From an uncultured Nitrospira sp. (lineage in GTDB: Bacteria; Nitrospirota; Nitrospiria; Nitrospirales; Nitrospiraceae): a DNA stretch of 64,000 bases. Under the pieces are notes generated by a model. That model ran no database searches. It was not told the origin of the DNA and saw nothing but the letters and a program-made list of their open reading frames with translations. Both the position numbers and the translations under genes were made by a program. Positions within the stretch are counted from its first letter, which is position 1. Each line of letters starts with the position of its first letter. The stretch lies in the NCBI GenBank assembly GCA_902500995.1, contig CABVSR010000007.1, forward strand, positions 62,001-126,000, in the 5' to 3' direction. This document shows positions 9,157-21,472 of the stretch, piece by piece.

Positions 9157-9549
9157 ATGAGGAAGGCCCCCAAACAGATTTCCAAGACCGGCGAGAAGCG
9201 GAAGACCCCCACATTCTCCAGTCCGTTGGCCCGCAAAACCGCGGCGGCTCAACAACAACAAAAGAAAAGCGATGTGACGGCAGCCATGGAGTTATCCCAA
9301 CGGAAAGCCGCGCTGCAAAGTTCGCCGAAGGTGTCTGCCGCGTTGGTACGAACCGTGGAAGCGGCCAGACTCCGGCGCAAGAAGGCGGCCATTACGGCGG
9401 CGATGGAAGAATCCCAACGAAGCGCCGATATCCAGCGCAAGCCGCTCTCATCGAAAGACCTGGAGCGGGCGGTAGCGGCCGGCGAGCGTCTGCGCGCGAA
9501 GGCGGCCATCACGGCGGCCTTGGAAGAATCGCAGCGGCGGTCGAGTTGA
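9157..9549 (+). CDS. Basic three-repeat protein of unknown function
   Basis: 130 residues, very rich in Ala, Lys, Arg, Gln and Ser and without aromatic residues beyond one Phe. A unit of about 39 residues is present three times, marked by VTAAMELSQR, ITAAMEESQR and ITAALEESQR. The region between marks contains VSAALVRTVEAARLR and LSSKDLERAVAAGERLR. The repeats are predicted helical. A GGAGGGACGAC ribosome site precedes the ATG. The composition suggests a nucleic-acid-binding or histone-H1-like role, but that is inference; I recognise no family. It diverges from the cytochrome gene. Confidence 0.65.
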   Translation: MRKAPKQISKTGEKRKTPTFSSPLARKTAAAQQQQKKSDVTAAMELSQRKAALQSSPKVSAALVRTVEAARLRRKKAAITAAMEESQRSADIQRKPLSSKDLERAVAAGERLRAKAAITAALEESQRRSS

Positions 9550-10027: not shown

Positions 10028-10696
10028 GTGTCAGAAGCTGATCAACAGAAGAAGAAGCCTCGGGTCATCATCGTAGACGATCAGGCCGTTGTTGCGGCGG
10101 GAATTCGCAAGCTGATCGAGCCGGAGTGTGAAGTGATCGCTTGTGTTGAGGACGGCCGGGTGCTTCTTGCTGAGGCGGAGAGGTTGCGGCCTGACATTAT
10201 CCTGATGGAAGTGCTGCTCCCGTCGCTCAACGGTATGGATGCGGCTCGGTACCTCGCCAGAAGAGTGCCTGAAAGCAAAATCGTTTTCTTGAGTATCGAC
10301 GGCAGGCACGTGGAGGAGGCCTTTAGGGCGGGCGCTTCGGCGTACCTCCTGAAACGTTCGCAACCATCAGAATTAACTCAGGCGATTCACGCCGTATTGA
10401 GGGGGCAGTGCTACCTTACTCCGCTTATCGCCGAAAACGTGGTGAAGAGGCGTACGAATGCGGCACAGGGCAAGCTGAGGAGTCCGGCCTTGTCTTCCCT
10501 GACCCCTCGGCAGCGAGAAGTGTTGCAGTTGATCGCGGAAGGGCGGGGGACGAAAGAAGTCGCGACCTTGCTCAATATCGCGGTCAAGACCGTCGAATTC
10601 CACAAGTTCCGCATCATGGACCAGCTGAATCTTCACTCCACCGTCGCGCTCGCAAAACATGCCATCCTTGAAGGGCTTGTCCGGCTTGAGTATTGA
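10028..10696 (+). CDS. NarL/LuxR-type response regulator with Glu at the phosphoacceptor position
   Basis: 222 residues. The receiver domain (about 10-128) keeps the acidic pair D17/D18, the conserved Ser/Thr position (S89) and lysine K109. Where the phosphorylated Asp should be, the sequence reads ILMEVLLPSLNG, with E61 (GAA, 10208-10210). The C-terminal LuxR helix-turn-helix (LTPREREVL-like, LTPRQREVLQLIAEG) is intact, so it should bind DNA. The GTG at 10028 follows GGAAGGACC at good spacing; the frame extends upstream to 9971 without such a site. It precedes the large PEP-CTERM gene in the same direction and is the natural candidate regulator of the exosortase cluster. No partner kinase is adjacent. 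An Asp-to-Glu change often mimics phosphorylation, but this is not proven here. Confidence 0.9.
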   Translation: MSEADQQKKKPRVIIVDDQAVVAAGIRKLIEPECEVIACVEDGRVLLAEAERLRPDIILMEVLLPSLNGMDAARYLARRVPESKIVFLSIDGRHVEEAFRAGASAYLLKRSQPSELTQAIHAVLRGQCYLTPLIAENVVKRRTNAAQGKLRSPALSSLTPRQREVLQLIAEGRGTKEVATLLNIAVKTVEFHKFRIMDQLNLHSTVALAKHAILEGLVRLEY

Positions 10697-10720
10697 TAGT
10701 CGCCCATCTGTTGCTCGACT

Positions 10721-10730
10721 TTGAGCTCAA
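10721..10730. promoter_or_regulatory. Perfect 10-bp palindrome upstream of PEP-CTERM gene
   Basis: TTGAGCTCAA is a perfect dyad located 116 bp before the PEP-CTERM gene start and just after the NarL-type regulator gene. NarL-family dimers bind inverted repeats, so it may be an operator. A 10-bp palindrome can also arise by chance. Confidence 0.25.
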
Positions 10731-10846
10731 GTAATCTTCCCAGTTTCCAGGCTTCCGCGTTTGAGCGTAGGGTACAGGCCGTATTCCGGCAGTGCCCCTT
10801 GTGCGAGCGAGGCCTGGCCGACCATCGCTCTGGAAGGAAGCCGACC

Positions 10847-13171
10847 ATGTTCCCTCTCAGTCCAGGTGTGTCTCTTCGAGTTCTGTGCTGGCAGTTACTG
10901 ACCTTGCTCCTGATGGCGCCTGGTGAGCTCCTCGCCATTCAGATCGCACCCAACCCAAATCCAGACGGCAATACGATCACGATCACGCCAGCCACGCCTG
11001 CTGAAAATCTCGTGCCCTTCACCAATGTGGGGGTCATCAACATTCAGCCATCCGCGTCTCTGTCCAACGCGAGCCGGTTCGAAAACTTTGGCGGGCTCTT
11101 CACTGCCGGGGCGATCACGAATGCAGGTGAATTCATCAACAACAGAGTATTCACTCTGCAGGAAGGATCACGATTCAACAACCTGACCTCCGGTCTCTAT
11201 AGCGGCTCCCAAGGTTCCGTCGGCGTCAGCGGCAGTTTTGTCAATGAAGGCGCCGTGACGCACAGCCTTGGCCACATTATCGTCGGAGAACGAGGTGAGT
11301 ACATTCAGCGACAGAGCCCAGGGTCTTCCGTAACGCCCACGACCACCACTCCTGACGCGCCGTTTACAAATCGGGGGCGTGTGCACATCGCTGCCGGTGA
11401 CTTCATTATCGACCCACTGAGTGTGCGTGCTGCGTCGGCGACGTATGATCAATCTTCCACCGGCACGACTCAGATCGACGCAAGGCTGCACAGTAACGGC
11501 GGTACGGTGCGCAACGCGGGCGCGATCACGGTCGGAGCCACCGGCCAGTATCTCCAGCAAAGTTCCAGCCCTCAATTCCTGGCCGGCAGCACCGCGAATA
11601 CCGGCAGCTTTGCCAACGCGGGCACGACGAACATCAACACCGGGGTCTTTGAGAACAGCAGAGGCTTTTCCAATACGGGAACGGTCCGTATCGGCGAAAG
11701 TGCCTCCTTTACCAATAAAGACTCCGCTTTCTATTTTCAGCCGTTCGGCGGTACGACAAAAATCGATGGGAAGTTTATCAGCAGCGGAGATGTGCAGAAC
11801 GGGGGGACGATCACCGTGAGCACAACAGGATTGTATAGTCAGGTAACTGGTAAGTCGTCGACCTCCTCTGCAGGTAATCCAGGAACCTTTACCAATGCGG
11901 GTGAAGTGCGTATTGGTCAAGGAACAGCATTTACCAATGTTATGCTTTCGATGCACCCGTCACCGTCGGGGGAGTACTTACAGCAGTCGAGCGGGACGAC
12001 AAGAGTCGACGGTATATTCGCCAACAGTGCCCGGGTGGATAACGCAGGGGCTGTGACTGTCGGGGCAGGAGGGCAGTATGTCCAAAAAGCGACCCCCGGC
12101 GGCTCCCCCACGATGGGCACCACCAATAGCGGCACTTTTAGCAACGCGGGTACGGTGCGCATCGGCGAGGGAACGGTTTTTAGCAACTTCCCAAGGCTGG
12201 AACCGGGCTCAGCAGTTCCGGTTGGCGGGCAGTATATTCAACAGGCCGGCGGTACGACGCAGCTCGATGGCACATTCTTCAACGGCGGCGGGCGTGTGAC
12301 CAACGACGGGACGATCACCGTCGGGGCGACGGGCACATACAGCCAGACACGCTCCGCTGCGCCGGTGCCGGGGACCCCGATGACGGTCAACGCCGGCAGC
12401 TTTTCCAATGCGGGATCCACGTCGATCAATGCCGGGTCCTTCGTTAATCAAGCCAACGTGGCCAACTCCGGCTCGTTTCAGATCGGTGTCAACGGCGCGG
12501 CAACGTTCACCAACCAAGGCAGCCTCGTGAATGCCGGAACATTGGAGGTGGGAACTCTCGGCCATGTGACCGGCACTGGAACCTACTCCCAAACCGTCGC
12601 GACGGCCCACACCATCGTCAACGGGACGTTCGCCCACACCGTCAGTCTTCAGGCCGGCACCTTAACCGGCGCCGGGACGATTCAGGGAGCTGTTCAGAAC
12701 AGCGGCGGCCTGCTGCTGCCCGGCAACAATGGATTGGGGATGCTCACGATTAAGGGCCAGTATGCGCAAGGACCAGGTGGGACCTTCGGCGTCAATTTGG
12801 CCGGGTTGAATCCGGGGGTCACATACGGACTGCTCGCGGTGCAGGGGACAGGAACCGCGGTGACATTGAACGGGAATCTCAAAGTCGGGCTGTTGAACGG
12901 CTTTTCTCCGTCGCTGGGCAATACCTTTGGCATCCTGACTTGCACGGGCTGCACCATCGGCGGAAGTCTGCGCGGCCTCTCCTTGCCGGCTTTGGCCTCG
13001 GGCTTGGACTGGTCGGTCCGATTCGTGGATGCGCTCGGCACGCTGCAATTGGCGGTAGTCTCGACACCTACCGCCTCTGCTCCCGAACCGGCCACGCTCG
13101 TTTTGGTTGGCTCCGGATTCGCGGGATTGCTGGCATGGAGACGGCGGAAGAGCGGGAGAACCAAACGGTGA
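10847..13171 (+). CDS. Large repetitive PEP-CTERM surface protein
   Basis: 774 residues. A signal peptide (VLCWQLLTLLLMAPGELLA) follows the ATG at 10847, which has a GGAAGG ribosome site. The body is a long run of degenerate units rich in Gly, Asn, Thr and Ser, marked by recurring phrases such as FTNAGEVRIGQG, QQSSGTTRVDG and NAGAVTVGAGGQY, as in beta-helical adhesins. It ends in a PEP-CTERM sorting tail: PEP at 746-748, a hydrophobic helix, then RRRKSGRTKR. The protein should be exported and processed by the exosortase encoded at 16465. The signal peptide and tail indicate surface or extracellular matrix location; the ligand is unknown. The repeats may vary in number between strains. Confidence 0.9.
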   Translation: MFPLSPGVSLRVLCWQLLTLLLMAPGELLAIQIAPNPNPDGNTITITPATPAENLVPFTNVGVINIQPSASLSNASRFENFGGLFTAGAITNAGEFINNRVFTLQEGSRFNNLTSGLYSGSQGSVGVSGSFVNEGAVTHSLGHIIVGERGEYIQRQSPGSSVTPTTTTPDAPFTNRGRVHIAAGDFIIDPLSVRAASATYDQSSTGTTQIDARLHSNGGTVRNAGAITVGATGQYLQQSSSPQFLAGSTANTGSFANAGTTNINTGVFENSRGFSNTGTVRIGESASFTNKDSAFYFQPFGGTTKIDGKFISSGDVQNGGTITVSTTGLYSQVTGKSSTSSAGNPGTFTNAGEVRIGQGTAFTNVMLSMHPSPSGEYLQQSSGTTRVDGIFANSARVDNAGAVTVGAGGQYVQKATPGGSPTMGTTNSGTFSNAGTVRIGEGTVFSNFPRLEPGSAVPVGGQYIQQAGGTTQLDGTFFNGGGRVTNDGTITVGATGTYSQTRSAAPVPGTPMTVNAGSFSNAGSTSINAGSFVNQANVANSGSFQIGVNGAATFTNQGSLVNAGTLEVGTLGHVTGTGTYSQTVATAHTIVNGTFAHTVSLQAGTLTGAGTIQGAVQNSGGLLLPGNNGLGMLTIKGQYAQGPGGTFGVNLAGLNPGVTYGLLAVQGTGTAVTLNGNLKVGLLNGFSPSLGNTFGILTCTGCTIGGSLRGLSLPALASGLDWSVRFVDALGTLQLAVVSTPTASAPEPATLVLVGSGFAGLLAWRRRKSGRTKR

Positions 13172-13313
13172 GGACGGAACGTCACCGGGACTATTACAAT
13201 GCAACCATTACGTTGTGTGACGCGAAAAAAGAGATTGTAACGATTACGGCCGGCGGGATTTCGGCGTAAGTACTCCATCGTGATGCGGCCCTATCGCAGA
13301 GGAGGATGACGAT

Positions 13314-14174
13314 ATGCCTACGAGATCAATGCGACGCCTGACGGTCTTCATACTCGGCCTGTGCCTGTCGGCGCCGTCGCTGGCCGGAGCCGGCTCGATC
13401 GTCTTTTCGGACTTCGGAGCGATTCTGGACACGGTCGATGCCTTTCGATCCGCCATCGGAGGCGCCAACAACGGCAATGCCGCCGGGCCCTTCACGACGG
13501 GCCGCAGAGAAATCAATTGGGATGGCGGCGGGGCCAATGCGCAGCCCTTGGTCAACATGCCCAAGGATCTGTTCTTGAATAACCGCGGCGCTTTTTACGA
13601 ACCGGCCGCCACGACCTTTTCCATCAGCGGCCAAGCCGCCCCCAATGACGCGACGCTGGCGCGGTTCGGCAACATCAATTCCACCTATCCCAACACCTTC
13701 ACTTCTTTCAGCAGCCCGCGTATTTTTGCCCCGACCAACAGCATCGTCACGGAGCAACTGTTCTTTCAGCCCGGGTCGAACAAAAATATTCCCGCCGTCA
13801 CGACGGCGTTCGGCGCCGTCTTCACCGACGTCGATCGCGCGCGGACCACGTCCATCGAATATTTCGGGGCCAACAATAAGTCACTGGGCAAGTTCTTCGT
13901 CCCTCCCGCCAACAATGGCCTGTCCTTTCTCGGGGTCAAGTTCGACGGCGGTGAGCTGATCAGCCGGGTATCGATCACCACCGGCGATACGGTGCTGGGG
14001 CCGAATGACGGAGGCGCCGTCGATGTGGTGGCCATGGACGACTTCATTTACGCCGAGCCCAAGTCCGCGGCGGCGGCAGGCGCGCCGGAACCGGGGACCT
14101 TGCTCCTGCTAGGCGGCGGCCTCGTGGGGTTGCTCTGGACCGGCAGGTCGGTGAGGCTGACGTTGCCCTCGTGA
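13314..14174 (+). CDS. PEP-CTERM exported protein
   Basis: 286 residues with a signal peptide (LTVFILGLCLSAPSLAGAG) and a C-terminal PEP-CTERM tail (PEP at 258-260, then LLLLGGGLVGLLW and a short basic end). The central domain contains TAFGAVFTDVD and SIEYFGANNKSLG followed by FLGVKFDGGE. These resemble extracellular beta-sandwich domains common in PEP-CTERM proteins, so no enzyme activity is claimed. A GAGGAGGATGACGAT ribosome site precedes the ATG. It lies 142 bp after the large PEP-CTERM gene and 46 bp before the TPR lipoprotein gene, so it is probably part of the same expression unit. Confidence 0.9.
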   Translation: MPTRSMRRLTVFILGLCLSAPSLAGAGSIVFSDFGAILDTVDAFRSAIGGANNGNAAGPFTTGRREINWDGGGANAQPLVNMPKDLFLNNRGAFYEPAATTFSISGQAAPNDATLARFGNINSTYPNTFTSFSSPRIFAPTNSIVTEQLFFQPGSNKNIPAVTTAFGAVFTDVDRARTTSIEYFGANNKSLGKFFVPPANNGLSFLGVKFDGGELISRVSITTGDTVLGPNDGGAVDVVAMDDFIYAEPKSAAAAGAPEPGTLLLLGGGLVGLLWTGRSVRLTLPS

Positions 14175-14220
14175 GGGGTGCCGCCGGCTATTTCTCCTGA
14201 GGGGCTGGAAGGACCGGCAG

Positions 14221-16425
14221 GTGGCTGAGGCATGGTCTTTATCCGTGGCTGTTATGGCAAAGTGGAGCGGGCGTTGCTGCCTTGTGGCCCTTGTGCCGCT
14301 CCTTGTTTCATGTTCCGAGCCGCCGGCCGACCGGGCCGCCCGGCACGAACATCGCGGGGATGCCTACGTTGAGCAGGAGCAGTTCCGCGAGGCGGTGATC
14401 GAGTATAAAAACGCCGCGCGGGATAGTCCCGCTCGAGCCGATCTGCACTGGAAGCTGGCCTCGGCCGCGTTACGCACCGGCGATGTGTCTGCCGCCTTCA
14501 CGGCGCTCAAGCGAGTCGTGCAACTTGACCCCCGGCACTTCGACGCGCATTGGTCGTTAGGGGATCTCTATCTGGCCGCCGGCAAAACCGGCGAAGCCGA
14601 GCAACTCGCCGAAGGCCTGCTCCTCGCGCGTCCTCAGCATCCCGCCGGATATCTGCTTCGTGCCGGCGCCTCCCTCGCCCAGGACCGGATCGCAGAGACT
14701 ATCGAATCTCTCAAACAAGCCGCTGCGCTCGATCCCACCATGCTGCGGCCCCGGATTGCCCTTGCCAATCTCTATTTCACCCGGCGCGATTTCAGGGAAG
14801 CCGGCGAGTGGTACGCGCGAGCGCTGGAAGCTGACTCAGCCTCCGTGGAGGCGCGCCTAGCCCACGGATACTTTCTGTGGGCGACGGGGTCGGTGGCGGA
14901 GGGGAAACAGGAATTTCAGAAGGCGCTGGAGATCGGCCGGGATCAGGAATTCGTCAAACTGCTGCTCGCCGAGCGGTACGTGGCGCTGGGCCGTCGCGAT
15001 GAGGCCGAACAGGAGCTTGCCGGACTCGTTACCGGCATGAATTCCCGCAAGGCCAAGAAAGCCCTCATCGAGTTGAAGCTGGCCGGCGGGCAGGTGGCGG
15101 CAGCCAAGCCCCTTGTGAACAGCCTGCTCGAGGCCGATGAGCACGATGCTCTGGGACTCTATTTCAACGGGCGCATCGCCCTCGCGGAGAATGATCTGCT
15201 GCAAGCCGTGAGTCTGTTCGAGCAATCCATCGGCCGGGATGCGGTCCTGGCCGGACCGCACCTCTACCTCGGACTGGCGCGCATGGCGCAAAACCGTGTC
15301 GATGCCGCGCAGAAAGAACTCCAGGAAGCGATCAGGTTGCAGCCGGACAACGACACAGCCCATCTGACACTCGCCAAGTTGTATCTCGTCCAGCAACAAC
15401 CCGCTGAAGCAGAAGGTCATGCCTGGCAGGCGTTACGCTCGAACCCTTCGAACCCCGAAGCGGCCCTCGTCGCCGGAGACGCGCTGACCCAAGCGAAGAA
15501 CTGGGCTAAGGCTCAAGAGGTGTACGGTGAAGTCGTCAGGCAACTTCCCGGACAGGCGGCCGGCTATGTGAAGCTGGCGGCGCTCAACCGGTTTCAAGGA
15601 AAGCCCTCCGAGGCGGTGCCGTTGTATGCTCAAGCCCTGTCGCGTGCCCCTGATGATCTGGTTATTCTGCAGCACTATCTGATGACTCTTGTGGAATCGA
15701 AGCGGGCTGAAAAGGCAGACCGCGTTCTCGGGGAGTATCTGACCAAAGCTCCGCGGGATCCAAATGTCTGGCGGCTCGCGGGCCTGCACTATGTGGCTCA
15801 GCGCCGGCTGGATCAAGCCGAGAAAGCCTTCCGGAAGGCGGCTGACTTGGCGCCGGATGCGGCCCTGGTGCACTATGAACTCGGACAATTCTATCTCCTC
15901 GAGCGCAAACTGCCCGCTGCCGAGGCGGCGTTGCAGGCTGCGTTGAAACGCGAGGAGAGCAATCCGGAGATCCATACGGCTCTGGGCATGGTGCTGGCGT
16001 CGGAGGGGAGGACCGATGCGGCCAATGGTCATTATCGCCGGGCTGTCCAGCTTGATCCGCACAATGCCGTGGCGGCGAATAATCTTGCAGCCAGCCTCAG
16101 TGAACAACAAGAGCTGGACGATGCGTTAGGATTGGCCCTGGCCGCCCTCGATCGGGCGCCTTCGAATGCAGCCATCAAAGATACGCTGGGGTGGATTTAT
16201 TACAAGAAGCACCGGTTTGAGGATGCCCATCGGCTGCTCACCGAAGCCTCGGCGGCGCTTCCGCAGCATCAGGTCGTCCGATACCACCATGCGCTGACGC
16301 TCGCTAAGGTCGGCAAGCAGGAGGAGGCGCTGGCCGAATTGAAAACAGCGCTCTCGATTCCTGGCGGTTTCCCAGAGGCTGATCGCGCGGCTCGGATGAT
16401 CGCATCGAATAAGGTTGAAGAGTGA
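14221..16425 (+). CDS. TPR-repeat lipoprotein of the PEP-CTERM system (PrsT-like)
   Basis: 734 residues. A lipobox (LVSC, Cys31) follows a hydrophobic segment, so the mature protein is lipid-anchored. Nearly the whole remainder is tandem TPR helices, for example GDAYVEQEQFREAVIEYKNAA near the N-terminus and LEVAL-like LALAALDRAPSNAAIKDTLGW near the C-terminus. PrsT-family TPR lipoproteins are genomic companions of exosortases, which fits its place directly upstream of one. The GTG at 14221 has GGAAGGACC seven bases away; an ATG at 14254 would shorten the n-region but lacks a good site. The likely role is a periplasmic scaffold for export or surface assembly (inferred). Confidence 0.88.
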   Translation: MAEAWSLSVAVMAKWSGRCCLVALVPLLVSCSEPPADRAARHEHRGDAYVEQEQFREAVIEYKNAARDSPARADLHWKLASAALRTGDVSAAFTALKRVVQLDPRHFDAHWSLGDLYLAAGKTGEAEQLAEGLLLARPQHPAGYLLRAGASLAQDRIAETIESLKQAAALDPTMLRPRIALANLYFTRRDFREAGEWYARALEADSASVEARLAHGYFLWATGSVAEGKQEFQKALEIGRDQEFVKLLLAERYVALGRRDEAEQELAGLVTGMNSRKAKKALIELKLAGGQVAAAKPLVNSLLEADEHDALGLYFNGRIALAENDLLQAVSLFEQSIGRDAVLAGPHLYLGLARMAQNRVDAAQKELQEAIRLQPDNDTAHLTLAKLYLVQQQPAEAEGHAWQALRSNPSNPEAALVAGDALTQAKNWAKAQEVYGEVVRQLPGQAAGYVKLAALNRFQGKPSEAVPLYAQALSRAPDDLVILQHYLMTLVESKRAEKADRVLGEYLTKAPRDPNVWRLAGLHYVAQRRLDQAEKAFRKAADLAPDAALVHYELGQFYLLERKLPAAEAALQAALKREESNPEIHTALGMVLASEGRTDAANGHYRRAVQLDPHNAVAANNLAASLSEQQELDDALGLALAALDRAPSNAAIKDTLGWIYYKKHRFEDAHRLLTEASAALPQHQVVRYHHALTLAKVGKQEEALAELKTALSIPGGFPEADRAARMIASNKVEE

Positions 16426-16464
16426 TCCAGCAACCGTGGCGCTGATGGTGAGTGAGGCCGGCCC

Positions 16465-18051
16465 GTGGAGAACTCGTTCGTCAATTCTTCTCAAGCTCTG
16501 GAACAAGTAGAACCAGGACGCTCTCTCGCGGGCGAGCGCGCATTCCGCTTCCGCCATGGTCAGGTCTGGCTCCGGGCATTGGGAGTCGGCATTCCTCTCG
16601 CAATCCTCTGCGCTCCCATCGCCGGCGACCTCGTCGATCTCTGGTCGAATCGATACGGCTTTTCGCACGGGTTCCTCGTGCCGCTGGTCAGTCTGTACCT
16701 GGGCTGGCTCCAATGGCCGAGGTTGCAGCAGATCCCTCCTCAGCCGGCCATCGTGGCGGGATGGCTCTGGCTGGCCTCGGCGACCGCTTTACTGCTGGCG
16801 AGCGAAGCCGCCGGGGTCATCACCACGGGAAGCGCGGCGTTCATACTGGTTCTCGCCGGGCTCGTGCTGCTGCTGTGCGGGTACACCTATCTAAAAGCCC
16901 TGGCATTTCCGCTTGCCTATTTGCTGTTCATGACGCCGGTGCTCGACGTCCTGACCGAGCCGCTGGTCTGGCCGTTTCAGCTCCTGACCGCCGGTATGTC
17001 GGCGAGTCTGTTGCAGGTGCTCGGCATTCCCGTTCTGCTGGATGAACACATCCGTCTCATTCTGCCTACTGTGACATTGGAAGTGGTGCGCGAATGTAGC
17101 GGGGCTGGATTGCTCATCGCTGTCTTGGCTATCGGATTGCCGCTCGCCTACCTCACGTTGCAAGCCTGGTGGAGCCGGATCATCTTGGTGCTGTCCTCGG
17201 TGGCCGTCGCAATTGTGGCGAATTGGGTACGCGTGGCGGTCATGGGGATATACGCGCAAGCGGGCGGCAAGGATTTGCACGGGCCCTACCACATTCTCCA
17301 GGGACTGTTCGTCGATTGGGTCGCGTTCGGGTTCTTATTTCTCGGGGCCTGGTTGCTGGGCAGATTGGAGAGGGTTGCTCCAGGCGTGACGCCACCCCCT
17401 GCGCAGCAATGGTCTCCGGGACACATTCCGCCGGTTACGGCCTCGCCTCGCGCTTGGTGGCTGGCATGCATCACCCTGACGGCGGCGGCGCTCGCATTCT
17501 ATGCGCTCGATCGCGGGGCGAGCGGACTCACGAAAGATCTGGCGACATTCCCGGCCGTGATCGGGGACTGGGTCGTGGACTCCGAGCCGAACCACGAGCC
17601 GCTCGCCCTGTTGCCGGATGCTGATCAATCTCTTGCGCGGACCTATCGCACGTTGGACGGCCGGCGCGTGCATCTGTACATCGGGTATACGAGGTCGCAA
17701 CGTCAGGGAACGGAACTGGTGGGCATGGCGACGGCTCCGCTTCATGAGAAGGCCATCGCAACGGCTGTAGCGGTGGGAGCGGGATCGCAGGCGGCGAATC
17801 GCACGAGCCTAGACCAGCGCCGCCAGTCCATTCCGGCTCTGTTTTGGTACCACGTCGATGGGACAGGCTATGCGGGCCGGTATCAGGCCAAATTGGCCAC
17901 GGTCACCCAGGCCCTTCTGCGCGGTCGCACCGATGGGGCCCTCGTGCTGCTGTCCGCCGAGCCGCGCCATGATCAGAACGCAGCGCAGTGGCGAGCGCAG
18001 GAAGAGTTTGCCGGACTGCTGGTTCCGCTCATGCGGGAGTATCTGCCATGA
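16465..18051 (+). CDS. Exosortase fused to an EpsI domain
   Basis: 528 residues. The N-terminal half is a multi-pass membrane exosortase with the catalytic set visible: Cys211 in VVRECSGAG, Arg256 in ANWVRVAVMGIY, and His276 in GPYHILQG. This transpeptidase-like enzyme cuts PEP-CTERM tails of exported proteins at the cytoplasmic membrane. After a transmembrane segment near residues 330-350, the C-terminal region (FPAVIGDWV onward) matches the EpsI/DUF3485 domain found with exopolysaccharide systems. Fused Xrt-EpsI proteins are known from exosortase A type loci. The GTG at 16465 follows GTGAGGCC. The next gene overlaps its stop by four bases, so they form an operon. The two PEP-CTERM genes upstream are the expected substrates. 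Confidence 0.92.
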   Translation: MENSFVNSSQALEQVEPGRSLAGERAFRFRHGQVWLRALGVGIPLAILCAPIAGDLVDLWSNRYGFSHGFLVPLVSLYLGWLQWPRLQQIPPQPAIVAGWLWLASATALLLASEAAGVITTGSAAFILVLAGLVLLLCGYTYLKALAFPLAYLLFMTPVLDVLTEPLVWPFQLLTAGMSASLLQVLGIPVLLDEHIRLILPTVTLEVVRECSGAGLLIAVLAIGLPLAYLTLQAWWSRIILVLSSVAVAIVANWVRVAVMGIYAQAGGKDLHGPYHILQGLFVDWVAFGFLFLGAWLLGRLERVAPGVTPPPAQQWSPGHIPPVTASPRAWWLACITLTAAALAFYALDRGASGLTKDLATFPAVIGDWVVDSEPNHEPLALLPDADQSLARTYRTLDGRRVHLYIGYTRSQRQGTELVGMATAPLHEKAIATAVAVGAGSQAANRTSLDQRRQSIPALFWYHVDGTGYAGRYQAKLATVTQALLRGRTDGALVLLSAEPRHDQNAAQWRAQEEFAGLLVPLMREYLP

Positions 18052-19169
18052 AGACGGGCGCCCCGCTGACCATCCGTTCCGCCACGTCCCTCGAAGCCTT
18101 CAAGGGATTGGCCCCAGAATGGGAGGCGTTGCTCGACAGGGTGCCGGGTCATAGCCTGTTCCTCACCTGGGACTGGTTGTACTCCTGGGCCACGCATTAT
18201 CTGGGAGACGGGCAGATCAGAATTCTTTTGGCGTTCGACGACCGCGAACGTTTGGTCGGCATTGCGCCGTTCTTCCTTCGAACGAGAAGACGAGGTGTGA
18301 TCTCGGTTCGAGAGCTGAGGTTTCTCGGCAGCGAGGCCGTCTGCTCGTCCTATCTCGATTGTCTTGCGCAGGAGCCTCACAAGCCTGCTCTGATTCAGAG
18401 TCTCTATCACTATTTGTTTACGGAGGCGCGTGGTCAGTGGGACATCCTGACCTTGTCTGATCTGCCGGCGGAATCATCCACGTTCGATCTCTTCAGCGAC
18501 CTGTTCGATCAGCCGGGCAAGGTCGGGGAGATCATTGGCACGACCTGCTGCCCGGTGATCCGGCTGCCGGGCGATGTCACGACCTATCGCGCCGGGCTCG
18601 GGCGAAACCGGCGGTATGGCCTGCAACGAAAGACGACGCGCCTGCGGAAGGCCGGGCGGTTGGAGTTCACTCGTGCCACCAGCCCCGCCGAAGTGGAGGA
18701 CGCCTTTGAGTCGGTGATCGACCTCCATCAACAGCGCTGGAACGGTCGACCGGGCGGTGGCGTGTTTGCCGATGGCCGGGCGAAACGGTTTCACCGGGAC
18801 ATCGTGCGGGTCATGAGCGAACGCGGGCGCGCCAGTATCGACAGGCTGTTGCTGGAGGGACGACCGATCGCCGGGATCTACGGATTTACGTATCGGGGTG
18901 TCTATTATTTTTATTTGCCGGGCTTCGATCCGGACGCGATTCCACAGGCCAGTCCGGGACGGCTGCTGTTGCATCACCGTATCGAGCAGGCCTTAGGCGA
19001 CGGCGAACGGATGGTGGATCTGCTGCAGGGCGCGCCGCCCTACAAGCTCGAATGGTCGAACGATGTGCGGCGATCCATCACGGTGCGCTGGTACAACCGG
19101 TCTGCGCGGGCCGTGGCGCTCAAGCTGCTGGAGAGCGGCAAACAGGCAGCCAAAATCTTGCTGCGGTAG
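18048..19169 (+). CDS. GNAT/FemAB-type transferase of the exosortase locus
   Basis: 373 residues. The C-terminal part (about 160-330) has the Acetyltransf_6 (CelD/BcsL) layout. Visible marks are RNRRYGLQRKTTRL, VIDLHQQRWNGRPGG, and YYFYLPGFDP followed by a DLLQGAPPYKLEWSND end. Such proteins, often called FemAB family, recur beside exosortase and exopolysaccharide genes and are thought to acylate or aminoacylate a cell-surface polymer. The ATG overlaps the exosortase stop (ATGA), giving translational coupling. The true donor and acceptor are unknown. Confidence 0.85.
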   Translation: MKTGAPLTIRSATSLEAFKGLAPEWEALLDRVPGHSLFLTWDWLYSWATHYLGDGQIRILLAFDDRERLVGIAPFFLRTRRRGVISVRELRFLGSEAVCSSYLDCLAQEPHKPALIQSLYHYLFTEARGQWDILTLSDLPAESSTFDLFSDLFDQPGKVGEIIGTTCCPVIRLPGDVTTYRAGLGRNRRYGLQRKTTRLRKAGRLEFTRATSPAEVEDAFESVIDLHQQRWNGRPGGGVFADGRAKRFHRDIVRVMSERGRASIDRLLLEGRPIAGIYGFTYRGVYYFYLPGFDPDAIPQASPGRLLLHHRIEQALGDGERMVDLLQGAPPYKLEWSNDVRRSITVRWYNRSARAVALKLLESGKQAAKILLR

Positions 19170-19214
19170 CGCGGCGAGAAGCCGGTACACGTTCGTGACA
19201 AGGAGGCGCCGGTT

Positions 19215-20321
19215 GTGAAATTGGTCGTGACCGTCGATGTGGAAGAGGATCAATGGGGCATCGTTCCGCATGCTCAAGCGACCGCGCGCAATGTGTATCG
19301 TCTTCCGAGGTTGCAGAAGGTGCTGAATGAGTTCGGCATCATCCCGACGTACCTTCTGACCTATCCGGTGGTGCGTGACCCCTGTGCGGTCGGGATCCTG
19401 CGAGCAATCCTGGATGCCGGCGAGTGTGAGATCGGGATGCACTGCCATCCGTGGAACACGCCGCCCTATGAGGAGCGTTTAAGTAACCACAACAGTATGC
19501 TCTGCAACCTCCCGCCGACCCTGCAGTTCGACAAGTTGCAACGGCTGCACGAAGCCATTGAGAACCATCTTGAGATCGCTCCCGTGGCATTCCGGAGCGG
19601 CCGGTGGGGGTTCGATGCGGGAGTCGCCCGAAACATTGTCCGGCTTGGGTATCGTCTCGATACCTCTGTGACTCCCTACACATCCTGGGCACAAGCCTCC
19701 GGTCCCGACTTTTCAGACGTGTCCCCCCGGCCGTACACCTTCACCCAAGGTCTTCGTAACGGGCTGGATTCGAACGGCCGGCTGGCGGAAATACCGGCCA
19801 CCATCGGCTATCTCCATGGGGAGTTTCAGGCCTGCGCCAGATTGATCCAGCGGCTCAACCGCGCCCCGCTTGGCGGATTCAAACTCGGCAGCCTGCTGTC
19901 ACGGCTGCGTCTCCTGCGGAAGGTGTGGCTCTCCCCCGAAATGGAAACGCCGGCCATGATGATGCAACTTGTCCGGCAGATGCGCAGCCAAGGGTATGAA
20001 TGGCTCAACCTCGTGTTCCACTCCTCGGCGTTGCTGGGCGGATGCGGACCGTTCGTGCGCACAAAAGACGACGAACCGCGGTTTCTGAACAACCTCCAGA
20101 GGTTCCTCCGCTTGGCCAGTCAGGCGGGAGTTCAACCCGTTCCTCTCTCCCAAGCCGCCGGCTCGCTTTCGGCCGGGTCGAACCGGATGGGGTCAGCTCG
20201 GCCTGCGACTTCACAAAGCTATTTGCCCGATCGTGTGATGCCTACATACAACGTCGCAGAACCGATCGCCGCGCAGCGTGGCATCGCGGTCGCCGTGAGC
20301 CAGGCGCCTCCCACCAGTTGA
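19215..20321 (+). CDS. Polysaccharide deacetylase family protein of the exosortase locus
   Basis: 368 residues. The NodB-type metal site is visible: TVDVEED with Asp8 near the N-terminus, and MHCHPWNTP giving His76 and His78. The substrate-groove motif FRSGRWG comes at about 127-133. Such enzymes remove acetyl groups from N-acetylated sugars in exopolysaccharide or peptidoglycan. No signal peptide is apparent, so it may act in the cytoplasm on precursors; that is typical of the XrtA-associated form. The GTG at 19215 is preceded by AAGGAGG at ideal spacing. The C-terminal 60 residues, after GVQPVPLSQAAG, are low in structure and unlike the family. It is the last gene of the exosortase block. 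Confidence 0.85.
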   Translation: MKLVVTVDVEEDQWGIVPHAQATARNVYRLPRLQKVLNEFGIIPTYLLTYPVVRDPCAVGILRAILDAGECEIGMHCHPWNTPPYEERLSNHNSMLCNLPPTLQFDKLQRLHEAIENHLEIAPVAFRSGRWGFDAGVARNIVRLGYRLDTSVTPYTSWAQASGPDFSDVSPRPYTFTQGLRNGLDSNGRLAEIPATIGYLHGEFQACARLIQRLNRAPLGGFKLGSLLSRLRLLRKVWLSPEMETPAMMMQLVRQMRSQGYEWLNLVFHSSALLGGCGPFVRTKDDEPRFLNNLQRFLRLASQAGVQPVPLSQAAGSLSAGSNRMGSARPATSQSYLPDRVMPTYNVAEPIAAQRGIAVAVSQAPPTS

Positions 20322-20363: not shown

Positions 20364-21245
20364 TTATTTCCCCGCATGCTGGCCGGGGAGGCGAAAGAAC
20401 TTCGCGACGTCGTCAACGACCGGCACGCCGGTCGGATTGAACCAACTCAGCGCGCTCGCAATCCCCACATGCCCGATGTTTCGGTAGATCTCCGCCTGGA
20501 CCTCTCCGCCCGTTGCCCGGATCCGCGCCACGAGTTTCTCCAAGTTGGAGAGCCTGACGGTGTTGTCCGCATCGCCATGGAGCAACAGCATCGGCGGCTG
20601 CCGGCCGTCAATGAAGGTGGTCGCCTGCATGGTGGGATAATTGCCGGGAGGTCCGAACATATCCTGCAAATCGGGCTCATCGGGGGTAAAGGCGTAAGGG
20701 CCGGCAAGCCCCGCAAAATCTTGGATCACGGAGGAACGATCCTTCCCTTCGTCGGCAAGATAACGGGCATCCGTGGCGAGGAGCGCGCCGATATGCGCTC
20801 CGGATGAATGTCCCGCGACATGGATACGCGCCGGATTCCCGTGATACCGGGCAATGTTGTCGTGGACCCAGGCCAGCGCTTTGGCGCCATCCTGGACAAA
20901 GACGGGGAAGCGCACGGCCGGATACTTTCGCACGTCGGGAATGACGACGATAAAATTGCGGTCCGTGAACGTTTTGCCGACGAACCGGTAGTCGTCTTTG
21001 TCCCCGAACGTCCAGCGACCCCCGTAAAAGAAGACGATGACATCCAGGTTCTGGCCCTCTGATCCGGCCGGACGATAGATGTTCAGTTGTTGGGACTGCT
21101 CGGTTCCATAGGCGACGCCGGCAATCTCGTCCATATCTCCGAGGCGAGACGGGACATTGATCAAGGTGAAGCCCGCCTGCGCGCAAGCGGAGGTCATCGA
21201 TAGGAGGCAGATCATCGCGATCCGGCACAGATGTCTCACATTCAT
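20364..21245 (-). CDS. Alpha/beta-hydrolase (esterase-like), probable lipoprotein
   Basis: 293 residues from the ATG at 21245. The signal segment ends in a lipobox-like TSAC (Cys21), so it may be lipid-anchored in the periplasm. The hydrolase core includes FFYGGRWTFGD at the oxyanion position (family consensus is HGGG, here YGGR), the nucleophile motif GHSSGA (Ser147), and LLLHGDADNTV, which contributes the acid. A histidine in IGHVGI is the probable third member of the triad. These features match carboxylesterase/BD-FAE type hydrolases; substrate unknown. It is convergent with the polysaccharide deacetylase gene. Confidence 0.82.
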   Translation of the reverse strand: MNVRHLCRIAMICLLSMTSACAQAGFTLINVPSRLGDMDEIAGVAYGTEQSQQLNIYRPAGSEGQNLDVIVFFYGGRWTFGDKDDYRFVGKTFTDRNFIVVIPDVRKYPAVRFPVFVQDGAKALAWVHDNIARYHGNPARIHVAGHSSGAHIGALLATDARYLADEGKDRSSVIQDFAGLAGPYAFTPDEPDLQDMFGPPGNYPTMQATTFIDGRQPPMLLLHGDADNTVRLSNLEKLVARIRATGGEVQAEIYRNIGHVGIASALSWFNPTGVPVVDDVAKFFRLPGQHAGK

Positions 21246-21472
21246 TCTCGTTCTCGTGGCTGCTCCTCCGCTCAACAAGGGTTGACGCCGGGTCTCCTGA
21301 TCCAATTCCGAAGTCAGTCCATCGTAGCAAGTTTATGAGCGCCTTTCTCAAGGGATGCCGGACGGATGATTACTCGACTAGGGAAATGCCTTGTAGACAA
21401 TACGTATAGCGGTGATATGGTCAGGTCACCAGGCTGAATTGTGTCGGTGTCACCGGGAGAAACGAGCTCCAC

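Follow-up and report, generated by a model that had tools for sequence, protein, structure and literature searches.

Gene content of the locus

Seven consecutive genes in a 64,000-nucleotide stretch of DNA from an uncultured Nitrospira sp., a nitrite-oxidizer-type bacterium (the whole stretch being referred to here as the window), make up a compact exosortase locus that encodes its own PEP-CTERM cargo. The host genome (G000) comprises 3.97 Mb and is 97.6% complete, with the module located on a contig of 174,877 bp (C7), and its nearest named relatives among the compared genomes are Nitrospira, including N. defluvii. A preliminary description of the locus had listed seven genes running in one direction across 10028–20321, and all seven were found on the + strand in that order and over that span:

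10028–10696, +: LuxR/NarL-type response regulator (PF00072, Response_reg, and PF00196, GerE)
10847–13171, +: PEP1, a large predicted secreted β-helix cargo protein with a signal peptide and a C-terminal PEP-CTERM region (PF07589, 30.0 bits)
13079–13153, +: PEP-CTERM tag of PEP1 (eight orthologues share an invariant APEP)
13314–14174, +: PEP2, a second PEP-CTERM cargo protein (TIGR02595, 17.5 bits against a cut-off of 16), with orthologues at loci L047, L053, and L054
14254–16425, +: PrsT-like TPR lipoprotein (TIGR02917, 311.3 bits against a cut-off of 312.2), lipobox LLVSC
16465–18051, +: XrtW exosortase (residues 34–298) fused to an EpsI/DUF3485 domain (residues 334–527) (NF038142, PF09721, and PF11984)
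18048–19169, +: GNAT protein (Acetyltransf_6, FemAB-like; PF13480, E = 2e-34), in ATGA overlap with XrtW
19215–20321, +: CE4/NodB-fold deacetylase-like enzyme (PDA), from its predicted structure; the conserved part is residues 1–316

The regulator starts with a GTG codon at 10028, a start that is kept in relatives, and the start of PEP1 was corrected to 10847. For the TPR gene, a start at 14254 (residue 12 of the longest open reading frame) agrees with the relatives and is more likely than one at 14221. The four-base overlap between the exosortase and GNAT genes was confirmed at 18048–18051, where the TGA stop codon of XrtW is nested in the ATGA that opens the GNAT gene; at least eight loci, counting the divergent L060 and L061, retain this arrangement.

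The exosortase belongs to the XrtW family

The exosortase–EpsI fusion scores 561.9 bits against NF038142 (XrtW; cut-off 425) over the complete profile (1–494 of 494), with the DUF3485/EpsI domain also matched. Residues Cys211, Arg256, and His276 are invariant in 20 sequences, XrtA included, and the protein contains eight hydrophobic stretches, as is typical of the multi-pass membrane exosortases and archaeosortases. By profile match, the exosortase is a member of the already catalogued NCBI family XrtW and not of a new family. The module-type proteins form one supported clade (100/99) in the tree, with long internal branches to other XrtW. A literature search of a limited collection of papers produced none on XrtW, nor on exosortases with FemAB, and work on Nitrospira with exosortase or PEP-CTERM yielded passing mentions only, apart from Haft et al. 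(2006).

The PEP-CTERM cargo

PEP1 and PEP2 both possess the features of exosortase substrates, namely a PEP motif followed by a hydrophobic segment and a basic cluster, together with N-terminal hydrophobic segments, and they are the only PF07589 sites in the whole host genome. PEP1 exceeds the PF07589 cut-off of 20.7 bits and also passes that of TIGR02595; PEP2 passes both narrowly (21.5 bits for PF07589), and its orthologue in L047 likewise ends in PEP-CTERM. Whereas the TPR–XrtW–GNAT–PDA core is constant between loci, the cargo is variable. PEP1 ranges from 486 to 1034 amino acids across relatives in steps of whole repeat blocks, and PEP2 is sporadic, with orthologues 85–89% identical. Four PEP-CTERM genes are present at L055, and at L049 the usual cargo is replaced by a DUF3494 ice-binding PEP-CTERM protein. 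PEP2 homologues of ∼40% identity were also seen at separate sites (L074, L075, L076, L077, and L078), with a VPAPA-type tail instead of APEP.

PEP-CTERM proteins were found in 14 of 15 genomes with XrtW and in four of 14 without it, a difference (Fisher p = 0.0005) drawn from related, non-independent genomes of the genus, and in none of the four genomes that are free of exosortases. Six genomes (G061, G064, G055, G098, G052, and G058) contain an exosortase and no PF07589 protein; these exosortases may use variant tags.

The AlphaFold2 model of PEP1 is an all-β solenoid (pLDDT 80.7, pTM 0.74). The top Foldseek match was Antigen 43 (1.7e-8), followed by further autotransporters, and VIA-align returned Vag8 (Z 23.6, 296 residues, 3.0 Å) and pertactin (Z 20.7, 417 residues, 4.6 Å), with residues 597–740 matching the IcsA autochaperone (Z 11.0); VIA-align lists were taken throughout as evidence for the presence of matches, never for their absence. 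As β-helices match each other widely, homology to autotransporters is not claimed. No C-terminal β-barrel translocator was found in PEP1, whose sole Pfam matches are to PEP-CTERM-type models. PEP1 is predicted to have an architecture like that of an autotransporter passenger, with the barrel absent and a PEP-CTERM tag at its end. The earlier view of a module built around one large repeat protein holds, that protein now being a predicted β-helix. PEP-CTERM proteins with autotransporter-associated repeats are known from other phyla.

The TPR lipoprotein, GNAT, and deacetylase

The TPR protein falls just under the curated cut-off for PrsT and is named PrsT-like for this reason. The PDA was below threshold in Pfam (PF01522, 12.9 against 23.1 bits), and a sequence search of the PDB gave no match of substance; since sequence searches missed its family, the enzyme was classified by structure. 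Its predicted model is modest overall (mean pLDDT 62.5, pTM 0.66), and the core aligns with 3rxz (Foldseek E = 1.5e-5; VIA-align Z 17.0, 224 aligned residues, 3.7 Å) and with ArnD (Foldseek E = 2.0e-5; VIA-align Z 14.3), a clear CE4/NodB fold in the predicted structure. The conserved residues Asp8, Glu10–Asp12, His76, His78, Arg130, Asp149, and His269 fit the CE4 motifs with an HxH variant and are candidate metal ligands. Neither a signal peptide nor a hydrophobic segment was found in the GNAT or the PDA, and both are therefore probably cytosolic and would act on a precursor. The substrate of ArnD is a lipid-linked sugar.

Conservation, selection, and loss across the genus

The order [response regulator]–[PEP-CTERM gene(s)]–TPR–XrtW–GNAT–PDA recurs in about a dozen genomes of the same genus or family (L043–L047, L049, L050, L053–L055, and L058 with L072), mostly at one shared chromosomal site with the same flanking genes, which are unrelated to the module; the conserved order that the preliminary description had proposed to look for in other Nitrospirota is thus present in ∼12 Nitrospira genomes. 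The cultured N. defluvii is among the carriers of the module. In pairwise comparisons, the ratio of nonsynonymous to synonymous divergence (dN/dS) was about 0.1–0.3, with dN far below dS for every gene compared: 0.21 versus 0.98 for XrtW, 0.14 versus 1.14 for GNAT, 0.14 versus 1.13 for PDA, and 0.20 versus 1.04 for PEP1, where the dS estimates, if high, approach saturation and are hence rough. On these estimates the module genes are under purifying selection, which, together with the genus-wide order, indicates that the gene row is not due to chance.

The module has also been lost. In G104 (L065) and G107 (L066) the regulator is followed, at equal spacing in both, by a deacetylase fragment of ∼50 residues, the intervening genes being gone, and in G075 (L064) a deacetylase remnant of 248 residues is left; none of the three genomes contains an exosortase or a PEP-CTERM protein. 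In G072, the PEP1 gene is missing between the regulator and a truncated TPR gene (L046:3140–3540), a gap that suggests partial decay of the module. Given these remnants and the partial loss in G072, a genome can do without the system, which tends to go as a unit.

A divergent XrtW–GNAT–deacetylase set, with the TPR gene in the opposite direction, occurs at L060, L061, and L062 (G069, G086, and G077). The set at L060 adjoins genes for a TonB-dependent receptor, an ABC transporter, and TonB, and the neighboring PEP-CTERM protein has a partial sulfite-dehydrogenase-like match.

Immediately outside the module, the window encodes a 130-residue basic protein with repeated TAAxEESQR-like units at 9157–9549, upstream of the regulator, and fragments of this protein also lie near the regulator in L045, L047, L065, and L066. 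A BD-FAE-type esterase gene at 20364–21305 on the – strand is convergent to the module end; no homologue of it was seen at the orthologous module loci.

Exopolysaccharide context and probable origin of the compact form

The claim that the module is compact and without glycosyltransferases (GTs) was borne out, as the GT2 and GT4 models (PF00535 and PF00534), which match at 31 places each genome-wide, found none on the 174,877-bp contig. Nor do relatives always carry a large adjacent GT cluster, the finding named in advance as decisive against a reduced system; the orthologous loci keep their order and their unrelated flanks, where the genes with a family match, which are part of the flanking set, are SufBD-like, PGA_cap, and cytochrome c.

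The setting of XrtW elsewhere in the phylum is different. All eight such loci examined (L097–L104) lie in exopolysaccharide (EPS)-type clusters with asparagine-synthase-like and AMP-ligase genes, several also with chain-length or GT genes, and XrtW of genus g6 is likewise found in EPS-type clusters. L097 and L098 both encode a 43%-identical homologue of the module deacetylase in addition to a separate TIGR03006 deacetylase, and L098 has a GNAT homologue at 32% identity. Because the distant XrtW loci examined lie in EPS-type clusters, the compact form probably derives from an EPS-linked XrtW locus.

The host genome contains a second exosortase, XrtA, on contig C11, in an EPS-type cluster with chain-length/kinase, priming GT, PseB/PseC-like, and WecB genes. 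Directly upstream of this XrtA is a small protein with a PEP-CTERM-like tail (L041:10711–10875; VPGPETLLAFAIGFAAFVVWRAKR), which PF07589 misses in the host genome. Such XrtA-adjacent mini proteins, of 54–60 amino acids, consist of an aromatic-rich start, a glycine linker, and the PEP-CTERM-like tail, with little else; they are also found in five relatives (G072, G092, G043, G116, and G083), with weaker examples in G052, G077, and G055. The pairing of XrtA with a mini PEP-CTERM-like protein of its own suggests separate sorter–cargo pairings.

Proposed function and alternative explanations

To our knowledge, the exosortase acceptor and the exact reaction are still unsettled. Collectively, the data argue, with a probability that we place at about two in three, for a compact, self-contained XrtW exosortase system with its own cargo, in which the GNAT and the deacetylase act on the precursor of the acceptor. 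PEP1 and PEP2 would be exported by the Sec pathway and retained in the inner membrane through their PEP-CTERM tails. There the PEP motif would be the site of cleavage or transpeptidation by XrtW, with its Cys-Arg-His residues and fused EpsI domain. The PrsT-like TPR lipoprotein could serve as a scaffold or chaperone, and PEP1, as a β-helix exposed at the cell surface, would function as an adhesin or a component of the matrix. In the cytosol, the translationally coupled GNAT and the deacetylase of CE4 type would act on a precursor, for which an amino sugar linked to a lipid or nucleotide is the most likely candidate and which would then provide the sorted proteins with their acceptor or anchor. 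The "minimal surface-matrix assembly system" of the preliminary description survives as far as compactness and the lack of GTs are concerned; its breadth does not, since the GNAT and PDA are probably cytosolic and most module genomes have a second exosortase.

Several points weigh against this interpretation. That the cargo is cleaved and reaches the surface, and that the GNAT and deacetylase prepare the acceptor, are steps that we infer, and the model of the PDA is confident in its core only, with metal-binding residues that are candidates. The co-occurrence of XrtW and PEP1 is partly built in, because the two are neighbors and are lost by one deletion, and G072 retains XrtW–GNAT–PDA without PEP1 and without the N terminus of the TPR protein. 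The absence of GTs beside the module in relatives rests on some of the flanking genes. Moreover, at least one additional exosortase, which could share cargo or supply a glycan, is present in nine of the 11 canonical module genomes.

The last point leads to the alternative that survives best, although we consider it unlikely: an ordinary EPS-coupled system, for which the glycan is made in trans (e.g. by the XrtA/Pse-type cluster on C11) and in which the GNAT and deacetylase decorate the polymer precursor. The location of the host XrtA in an EPS-type cluster and the 62 GT2/GT4 matches across the genome are compatible with this, as are the eight of eight distant XrtW loci in EPS-type clusters, some with GNAT and deacetylase homologues. 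As GTs are found in almost all genomes, their occurrence here says little about such coupling. Against it, XrtW is the sole exosortase of G089 (99% complete), and both PEP-CTERM proteins of that genome are inside the module; G110 has one exosortase as well, in a genome that is 66% complete. The mini PEP-CTERM-like neighbor of XrtA in the host and five relatives also points away from shared use. A bolder form of the self-contained system, doubtful at present, would be a self-sufficient exosortase pathway without a dedicated exopolysaccharide, with XrtW delivering to the surface an autotransporter-like β-helix, its barrel replaced by a PEP-CTERM tag, onto a free-amine sugar-lipid acceptor that the coupled deacetylase and GNAT would prepare in the cytosol.

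It is very unlikely that the module is a regulated surface-matrix operon with the adjacent response regulator as its dedicated switch. The regulator lies directly upstream on the same strand in nine of 12 module genomes, which had led to its description as the module's own candidate regulator; this did not hold up, as no regulator adjoins the module at L043, L049, and L055, two species in which one deletion removed the module have kept it, and it is not the PrsK/PrsR pair of classical systems. Between G104 and G107, which share the deletion junction, the regulator gave dN 0.029 and dS 0.224, a ratio of 0.13, and a gene under such constraint after module loss still has a role without the module. 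PrsK (TIGR02916, at a threshold of E = 1e-50) was absent from the host genome and 27 of 28 relatives, leaving one among the 29 genomes of the genus, and no –24/–12 (σ54) site was found upstream of the regulator, PEP1, PEP2, or TPR genes. The regulator adjoins the module and may influence the operon, but is not a component dedicated to it. Regulation by σ54 was rejected on the same two negatives, the missing –24/–12 site upstream of these four genes and the missing PrsK.

That the row is the decaying, now functionless remainder of an EPS locus can hardly be credited: the remnants in G104, G107, and G075 and the partial loss in G072 demonstrate dispensability, but in the window all seven open reading frames are unbroken, and each gene compared has a dN much lower than its dS.

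Four core genes with one or two adjacent substrates, and sister species that lack the module, make up a reduced system for testing exosortase sorting, which could reveal which parts cleave, anchor, and surface-expose a single cargo. The locus also draws attention to a CE4-like family that has no name and to a barrel-less, autotransporter-like cargo in the ecologically important Nitrospira.

Comparison with known systems

Most exosortase systems are embedded in extensive EPS clusters, and their numerous substrates are scattered. For the classical EpsH/XrtA system with PrsK/PrsR/PrsT, Haft et al. (2006; PMC1569441) state that epsH is nearly always found among EPS genes and that more than 65% of PEP-CTERM genes are apparently single-gene operons, and they report the –24/–12 DNA motif for proteobacteria only. 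The two systems share PEP-CTERM cargo, an exosortase, a PrsT-like TPR lipoprotein, a deacetylase, and FemAB/GNAT-type enzymes, whereas the module departs from the classical pattern in both its EPS context and the placement of its cargo, with two cargo genes only, beside the exosortase and not scattered as single-gene operons. It also has no GT cluster, and neither PrsK nor a σ54 promoter motif was found, and its deacetylase has no match to the XrtA-system model TIGR03006.

The individual components depart from their relatives in similar ways. The PDA resembles the CE4/NodB deacetylases, including ArnD, in its predicted fold, its conserved aspartate and histidine residues, and the lack of a signal peptide, and differs from them in its HxH motif variant and in falling below Pfam and NCBIfam detection. 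With autotransporter passengers such as Antigen 43 and pertactin, PEP1 is predicted to share the β-helix and, near its C terminus, a cap like the IcsA autochaperone, unlike them having a PEP-CTERM C terminus, no β-barrel translocator, and no Pfam autotransporter domain. The exosortase has the full-length match, EpsI fusion, and invariant Cys-Arg-His of the XrtW family (NF038142), but its module-type clade lies outside EPS clusters, whereas other XrtW of the phylum, ∼30–42% identical, are found in EPS-type clusters or other settings. Taken together, the locus is a real and coherent variant of a known system, in which the XrtW family is known and the compact, cargo-bearing arrangement is new.

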